Assembly: GCA_014382295.1 (NCBI GenBank)
Contig: JACNJZ010000171.1
Location: 1 to 37,026 of the forward strand
Reading direction: 5' to 3'
Source: Candidatus Desulfobia pelagia
GTDB lineage: Bacteria > Desulfobacterota > Desulfobulbia > Desulfobulbales > SURF-16
Length of the DNA: 37,026 bases
Shown: in pieces, positions 7,921 through 20,066 of the stretch
Layout: each line of letters begins with the position of its first letter
Position numbering within the stretch: position 1 is the first letter of the stretch
Translations under genes and position numbers: made by a program
The notes under the pieces: generated by a model
Seen by the model: the letters and a program-made list of their open reading frames with translations, nothing else
The model's database searches: none
Told to the model about the DNA's origin: nothing

Positions 7921-8985
7921 ATGCGGCAGTATTTCCCTTTATGTATTTTTCTTGCCCTGGTGGTCCTGATACAGCTTGTCACCCAGATAACAGAAACCGC
8001 CTTTTACTTGACGCAGCTAACCATGAGCGCTTATTACTCCCTGCTCATTATCGGCCTGTGCACCATCATGGGGTACGCCGGCCAGATCTCTCTTGGCCAT
8101 GCCGGTTTTTTCGCCATCGGAGGTTATCTTTCAGCCGGCCTCACCACCCATAACCTTCAGCCTTTTGCCGACACCGGAATAACTTCCCTGCTCGACAAGG
8201 CCGGGTTGCTGGTTTCCAGTAAGGATCTGTACGGCGACACCCTGCTTACCGTACATCCATGGATTGCCTGCATTGTCGCAATCTCCACAGCTGTCATTAT
8301 CGCCCTTGTTCTGGGCGGACCAGTTCTTAAACTTAAAGGGCATTACCTGGCAATGGCCACTCTTGGATTTGGCATCATCATCTTCCGCATTGCCATGGCA
8401 ACCCCATATTTCGGTGAGGCAGACGGCCTATCAGGTGTTCCCTCTTTTACACTCCTGCCCGGGATCACGGTAAGCGGTGATTTCGGAGCACGCATCATCA
8501 ACTATTACATTGCCTGGGGCACGGTACTCATCGGCATGCTCCTCCTGATCAATCTCGTCAATTCCCGAATGGGCCGTGCTCTCAGCGCCCTCCATGGCTC
8601 CGAGGAAGCAGCCCAGGCAATGGGCGTTAATACTGCACGGGCCAAACTGCTGACCTTTGTCCTAAGCGCAGCATACGCCGCCCTTGCCGGTGTTCTTCTG
8701 ACACACTACAACGGTAGCATCGGCCCCGGCGAGGCTGGTGTCATGAAATCAGTACGATATGTAGCCATCGTTGCCATCGGCGGCATGGCCCATCTCTGGG
8801 GAGCACTTATCATTGGTACTCTCCTGAACTTCATGTCCATGCGCGGTCTTTTCGGGTCCTATGATGATGCTGTTTTCGGCATTATTCTTATTCTTATTAT
8901 GCTCTTTGCGCCCCAAGGATTATTACGCCTTCATATTTGGAAGCATATTCAAAAGATAAAACCCAAAAAACATGGCACTGCTTGA
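7921..8985 (+). CDS. livM: Branched-chain amino-acid ABC transporter permease LivM
   Basis: 354 aa hydrophobic; MGYAGQISLGHAGFFAIGGYLSAG motif. Confidence 0.9.
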   Translation: MRQYFPLCIFLALVVLIQLVTQITETAFYLTQLTMSAYYSLLIIGLCTIMGYAGQISLGHAGFFAIGGYLSAGLTTHNLQPFADTGITSLLDKAGLLVSSKDLYGDTLLTVHPWIACIVAISTAVIIALVLGGPVLKLKGHYLAMATLGFGIIIFRIAMATPYFGEADGLSGVPSFTLLPGITVSGDFGARIINYYIAWGTVLIGMLLLINLVNSRMGRALSALHGSEEAAQAMGVNTARAKLLTFVLSAAYAALAGVLLTHYNGSIGPGEAGVMKSVRYVAIVAIGGMAHLWGALIIGTLLNFMSMRGLFGSYDDAVFGIILILIMLFAPQGLLRLHIWKHIQKIKPKKHGTA

Positions 8986-10641: not shown

Positions 10642-11940
10642 ATGTATTGGGAAAAAGACAAAGAATGTATGGCCAGAGAAGACCTGGAACAACTCCAGCT
10701 CGAGAGACTTCAATCTACACTTTACCGTGTCGCAACCCACGTCCCATTTTATAGGAAAAAATTCAAGGAGCTCAATATTGACCCTGACGGATTTGGATTT
10801 CTTTCTGAATTAAAAACCCTTCCTTTTACCACCAAACAGGACCTGCGGAACAACTATCCATACGGCCTTTTTGCCGTACCTTTACGCGATGTTGTCAGGG
10901 TGCATGCTTCATCAGGAACGACCGGGCAGGCTACTGTTGTCGGCTATACACAAAATGACATAAAAACCTGGTCAAATCTTGTGGCAAGAGTGCTTACTGC
11001 AACAGGCGTCGGCAAGGATGATGTGGTACAGATTGCCTTCGGATATGGACTTTTCACGGGTGGTTTTGGTCTTCACTACGGATCGGAATGTATAGGAGCT
11101 TCAGTTATTCCTATTTCCAGCGGAAATACCAAGAGGCAGATCCAGATCATGCAGGATTTCAAAACGACAACGCTTATCTGCACTCCAAGCTACGCACTGC
11201 TCATGGCTGACATGATGATTGAAAATGATATTAATATCAACGCCCTGTCACTACGCTACGGCCTTTTCGGAGGAGAGCCGTGGTCCGAGCAAATGAGAGA
11301 GGAAATTAAAAAGAAACTAAATATCATTGCCACTGACAATTATGGCCTGAGTGAAGTCATGGGCCCTGGCGTTGCAGGAGAATGCCAGGAATGCAACGGC
11401 CTTCATATTAATGAAGATCACTTTCTGTTTGAAGTTATTAGCCCTGAGAGTCTGGAGCCGGTCGGCCCAGGAGAAGTGGGTGAACTTGTTATCACAACCC
11501 TGACCAAGGAAGCTTTTCCGGTTATTCGTTACCGGACAAGAGATCTGGCCCATATTATTGACGAACCATGCCCTTGCGGCAGAACATTCAAACGGATGTC
11601 CCGTGTAATCGGCAGGACAGATGATATGCTGATTATACGGGGAGTGAATGTCTATCCAACCCAAATAGAAAGCGTACTCTTTGACATTAAAGGTACAGAA
11701 CCCCATTACCAGATTGTCGTTGAGCGGGAAGGTCATCTTGACAAGGCGACTGTGATGGTCGAAGTCGTTGAATCAATCTTCTTTGATCAGATGAAAAAAC
11801 AGCGCCAGCTTGTTGATCACATCAAAAAAAGACTTGCAACGGAACTGGGTATCAGTGTGGATGTTAAACTTGTAGAAGAAAAAAGCCTGGAACGATTTGA
11901 AGGAAAGGCAACACGGGTTATTGATAAAAGAAAATTGTAA
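10642..11940 (+). CDS. paaK: Phenylacetate-CoA ligase (copy 2)
   Basis: About 432 aa paralogue of copy 1; [14 protein letters not shown] and [18 protein letters not shown] at 10642 chosen for GGAGG spacing; the ORF track opens at GTG 10627. Confidence 0.92.
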
Positions 11941-14707: not shown

Positions 14708-15076
14708 TTACTTTTTACGAGCACCTGGTGAACGGCGAGGACCTTTTCGTGTTCTTGCATTTGTCTTGGTACGCTGACCACGACAGGGCAAGTTGCGACG
14801 ATGCCTTATTCCTCTGTAACAGCTAAGGTCCATAAGGCGCTTGATATCCATTGCAACTTCGCGCCTTCTGTCTCCTTCTACTGCATATTTCTCTTCTAAA
14901 ATTTTCCTTATACGAGTGACATGCACATCAGTGATATCATCACTGTTCATGGTGTACTCTATTTCAGCTTCATCTAGAATCTTTTTAGAAGTTGTCCGTC
15001 CAATACCATAAATATAGGTCAAGGCAATTTCGATATGTTTGTTTTTCGGCAAATCAACGCCTGCGATGCGAGCCAA
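14708..15076 (-). CDS. rpsM: 30S ribosomal protein S13
   Basis: [26 protein letters not shown]. Confidence 0.97.
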
Positions 15077-15242: not shown

Positions 15243-15476
15243 TTACTTCCTTTTTTGGACTTTCGACCTGAATGTAACTCTTCCTCGAGTCAAATCATAA
15301 GGTGAAAGTTCCACTGTTACCCTGTCACCTGGTAAAATTTTGATAAAGTGCATTCTCATTTTACCGGAAATATGAGCAAGAACCTTGTGTCCATTATCAA
15401 GTTCAACTCGGAACATGGCATTCGGTAACGGCTCTATTATTGTACCTTCAACTTCTATAGCCTCTTCTTTAGGCAT
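15243..15476 (-). CDS. infA: Translation initiation factor IF-1
   Basis: [32 protein letters not shown]. Confidence 0.97.
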
Positions 15477-19526: not shown

Positions 19527-20066
19527 TTATTTAGAAGCTGACTTACCAGCTTTTCTGACAATATGTTCATCCTGGTAACGAATACCTTTACCTTTATATG
19601 GTTCGGGTTTCCGGATGCTGCGTATTTGAGCAGCAGTCAAACCAAGGTTCTCTTTATCTATAGACTCGAGTGTAATCACGTTGGCTTTATCAACAGCACC
19701 CGACACATTATCAGGCAATTGGAATATCACTGGATTGGAATATCAAACATTAAGAGTGAGCACACTGCCCTCTATTGATGCTTTATAACCTACACCTTCA
19801 ATAACCAGTTTCTTTTGAAACATTGCTTCTGTACCAACAATCATATTGTTGACCAGTGTGCGGGTAAGGCCACTGAAAGCACGAGTTCGCTTACTGTTAT
19901 CAAGACATTTCACCTTGATAATTCCATCTGACTGCTCAAGATCAATTTCAGGGCGAATAACTCGTTCTAAAGTTCCTTTCGGCCCTGTTACCTTAACATG
20001 AGTGCCATTTATTTCGACCTTAACGGTAACTGGTACCGTTATTGGCTGATTGCCTATCCTGGACAT
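19527..20066 (-). CDS. rplF: 50S ribosomal protein L6, interrupted by one in-frame TGA (19743-19745)
   Basis: ORFs 20066-19743 ([13 protein letters not shown]...SVLTLNV*) and 19730-19527 ((V)IFQLPDNVS...[22 protein letters not shown]) are in the same frame; joined they give a full-length L6 of about 179 codons. Confidence 0.93.

Follow-up and report, generated by a model that had tools for sequence, protein, structure and literature searches.

The window analyzed here, a 37,026-nt stretch of a Candidatus Desulfobia draft genome, carries on its minus strand a frame for ribosomal protein L6 (rplF; 19527..20066) of 179 codons followed by TAA, which is interrupted once, by an in-frame TGA at codon 108 (19743..19745), as an earlier note based on the sequence had claimed. 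The 107 residues upstream of the TGA (19746..20066, minus strand) comprise the first L6 domain and the beginning of the second, and the 71 residues downstream of it (19530..19742, minus strand) comprise the conserved remainder of the second domain. Each part is matched separately by the Pfam Ribosomal_L6 model (PF00347), at 1.2e-15 and 1e-11, respectively. Read through the TGA, the frame scores 110 bits against the curated Pfam cut-off of 27, and 209 bits against the L6_bact equivalog cut-off of 168.6 (TIGR03654), and its product is a full-length bacterial L6. No interruption was seen in any of the 32 other frames that were checked in the window, which belong to genes for ribosomal proteins and translation factors and to rpo, map and secY; a seemingly truncated rpsM (ORF 15243-15476) turned out to be infA, with rpsM itself intact at 14708-15076. 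A scan of the window against Rfam gave no match at the gathering score, no second copy of its DNA was found in IMG/VR, and a search of phage records contributed nothing further.

The interruption coincides with an invariant residue. Codon 108 corresponds to glycine in 39/39 aligned L6 sequences from relatives (an alignment that two contigs enter twice), none of which has TGA at this codon, and among the columns in which relatives keep one residue at 95% or more, L6 of the window deviates at codon 108 only. In the sister species this codon is GGA, one base away from TGA. A single base therefore accounts for the stop, so that both the conserved glycine and the GGA to TGA substitution that had been proposed are borne out. 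The nearest relative among the matches listed is a Candidatus Desulfobia draft, with 87% identity in L6; NCBI taxonomy places the genus in the Desulfobulbales.

Codon differences from the sister species indicate how long the TGA could have been in place. In the 107 codons 5' of the TGA we counted 31 synonymous and 11 nonsynonymous codon differences, and in the 71 codons 3' of it 32 and 12, respectively. For rplF as a whole, dN was 0.084 and dS 1.22, the dS of the part past the TGA being saturated when taken alone. Purifying selection still seems to act on the two halves of the gene, with about equal constraint on either side, and the nonsense change therefore cannot be old. Since the region past the TGA was translated and selected until very recently, the TGA should be either brand new or missing from most of the living population.

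The gene has no visible backup. The assembly (3.01 Mb in 224 contigs, 97.2% complete) was searched for a second rplF and none was found, so that the copy in the window is the sole one; this extends genome-wide what the earlier note could say of its own stretch. In the part of the genome surveyed for stop codons (1.46 Mb, read as 121 stretches), lone in-gene stops outside selenocysteine genes amounted to about 3 per ~400,000 codons: the L6 TGA, a TAG at 14800 in a Ysc84-domain gene (L112:14377-14979), and a TAA at 8434 within the receiver domain at the C-terminus of a large histidine kinase (L144:8273-11674). Both the Ysc84 gene and the kinase gene are dispensable. Lone stops also occur in related drafts. 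At least one relative among the matches listed, a Desulfobulbales draft (G104; L199), has a lone TGA in rplF, at codon 38, which encodes Arg in relatives, and another draft (G020; L202) has a lone TGA at codon 247 of rplB, where relatives have TGT for Cys (RHPCTPWG), with no SECIS-like hairpin following it. No lone stop was found in rpoC across 129 genomes. Searching the literature for stops of this kind in genome assemblies returned nothing. The lone stops hit unrelated codons and residues, as expected of sporadic errors in single bases or of variants that are not fixed, whereas a conserved recoding would instead recur at one site.

Elsewhere in the genome, UGA is a functional stop codon. TGA terminates 364/1171 (~31%) of the best-frame ORFs in the 1.46 Mb surveyed, including iorB and the ACT gene of the window, whose ordinary TGA stops, listed in the earlier note, we could confirm. 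The gene for RF2 (prfB) is present with the usual CTTTGA autoregulatory frameshift site; a TAA that appeared to disrupt it lies in the zero frame, past the +1 frameshift site, and prfB is normal. With RF2 retained and TGA this frequent as a terminator, a reassignment of UGA under an alternative code was rejected, in agreement with the initial judgment that a general code change is unlikely. About 33 tRNA genes, an incomplete set, were recovered, and among these the UCA anticodon was found on tRNA-Sec alone.

The genome carries SelB in addition to tRNA-Sec, and it does decode UGA as selenocysteine, in grdA, grdB, TsoA, ExtKL and rhodaneses. In-frame TGAs of this kind are found in TsoA (NF045695; L178:1997-2449), in the ExtKL cytochrome (NF040886; L113:14465-15748), in grdA and grdB (L179, near 10285 and 10904; named from sequence motifs), in a rhodanese (L103:9554-10888) and, close to the N-terminus, in a multihaem cytochrome-rhodanese fusion (L196:7552-9690). 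A TGA lies within 11/11 matches to TsoA across ten relatives, and in the five that were read it falls in the same LULA motif. A gene for a DnaJ-type chaperone (L171:11043-12032, minus strand) is a further candidate selenoprotein: its TGA, at 11573 in a Gly-rich linker, also occurs in the sister species (L208), and a strong bSECIS-like hairpin (-11.2 kcal/mol in G000) is folded in the same way by the sister. DnaJ is not mentioned in a review of selenoproteomes (PMC13188914). According to the bSECIS model given there, the hairpin lies 16-37 nt downstream and has a G within the first two positions of its loop. Using the genome's own selenocysteine sites as positive controls for the L6 UGA, we found a qualifying hairpin at 5/7 of these other sites, with one near (-5.9 kcal/mol) and one without, against a background rate of ~4% at GGA sites picked at random inside genes and 10% at ordinary TGA stops. 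No hairpin satisfying these rules was found 3' of the L6 UGA. The truly recoded UGAs of this genome thus provide a yardstick, with a SECIS-like hairpin at most of them and conservation in relatives where this was tested.

We consider it very probable that the rplF TGA stems either from an error in sequencing or assembly or from a rare nonsense allele that is not fixed, the two being taken jointly. A single-base difference (GGA to TGA, with the sister as reference) would have entered the draft consensus, either as an error or as a rare nonsense allele picked up by the assembler, two sources that the sequence leaves side by side. In living cells rplF would then be an ordinary gene with glycine at codon 108, and recoding would be unneeded; sequencing reads or a fresh isolate would be expected to show the codon intact. 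This favors the first option raised in the earlier note, an error, widened here to include a variant that is not fixed, on account of the one-base change, its recency and the sporadic stops elsewhere. Two observations pull the other way. The lone stops in ribosomal-protein genes are TGA in 3/3 cases and rpoC is clean, a spectrum that is not clearly random, tiny as the numbers are. In addition, the TGA opens the first of two copies of a 12-base direct repeat, TGATATTCCAAT, 16 bases apart (19718..19745, minus strand), and the T that creates the stop is the outermost base of the repeat, lengthening it from 11 bases to 12. Exact 12-base repeats no more than 30 bases apart occur at 0.5 per 10 kb, and this position could reflect a real replication-slippage mutation, against an error. 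The repeat is suggestive, being compatible with strand slippage either in vivo or in vitro; having been spotted post hoc, it is not decisive, and we rejected slippage as an established cause, since it would be equally compatible with a real mutation and with an error made in vitro.

A different reading is that the nonsense mutation is fixed and tolerated, with a near-cognate tRNA (e.g., tRNA-Trp) or an unseen suppressor supplying full-length L6. The single-copy status of rplF, the frame conserved on either side of the TGA and the lone TGAs in ribosomal-protein genes of two other related drafts are in line with this, as is the incompleteness of the recovered tRNA set, which leaves room for a suppressor. 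However, RF2 is intact and TGA is frequent as a stop, the UCA anticodon is confined to tRNA-Sec among the ~33 tRNAs, and TGA is not in excess among the non-selenocysteine in-gene stops of the genome. In E. coli, moreover, L6 has been described as an essential protein with a role in 50S assembly (PMC8313970), so that a nonsense mutation is unlikely to be fixed unless readthrough is strong. Suppression or readthrough, which had been listed as an option, accordingly stays on the list but gained no positive support from RF2, from a search for SECIS or from the recovered tRNAs, and we regard it as unlikely. If reads were to back the TGA, the surprising consequence would be an essential ribosomal protein whose synthesis relies on readthrough of UGA. 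A broader version, in which UGA is leaky in this selenocysteine-using lineage, such that nonsense codons in rplF (here and in G104) and in rplB (G020) are tolerated and read through, appears very improbable.

A split L6, consisting of the 107-residue fragment and a second fragment restarted downstream, has an even slimmer chance. An in-frame GTG 12 bases downstream of the TGA (19730-19728) does open a 67-residue ORF; as had been claimed, no Shine-Dalgarno sequence is visible before it. The break interrupts the second L6 domain, the two halves remain conserved as a single protein, and relatives have no split rplF among the matches listed, all of which upholds the earlier opinion that a split is unattractive. 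Decoding of the L6 UGA as selenocysteine by the SelB and tRNA-Sec of this genome, which does use UGA in its selenoprotein genes, can be practically dismissed, because the L6 site lacks the bSECIS hairpin present at most of the other sites, and because all aligned relatives have Gly rather than Cys at a codon where none shares the UGA, as opposed to the conserved UGA of TsoA and that of DnaJ in the sister.

Three known systems offer themselves for comparison. In the Gracilibacteria/SR1 code (NCBI table 25), UGA is reassigned to glycine, and the rplF UGA similarly sits at a glycine position. Unlike in that code, RF2 is present here, TGA ends ~31% of ORFs and there is one such site only; no Gly tRNA with a UCA anticodon occurs among the ~33 tRNAs of the incomplete set. 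Bacterial selenocysteine decoding is likewise approached in part, through an in-frame UGA in a genome with SelB, tRNA-Sec and several selenoprotein genes, but the L6 site differs in having no bSECIS-like hairpin, homologues with Gly instead of Cys, and a UGA found in no relative. The resemblance is closest to lone nonsense substitutions in draft consensus sequences, as a one-base change in a constrained gene, with no relative carrying TGA at codon 108; the comparable lone stops in drafts, those of G104 (rplF) and G020 (rplB), fall at unrelated codons. However striking it looks, an in-frame stop that a draft genome shows in an essential gene can thus be a plain one-base flaw.
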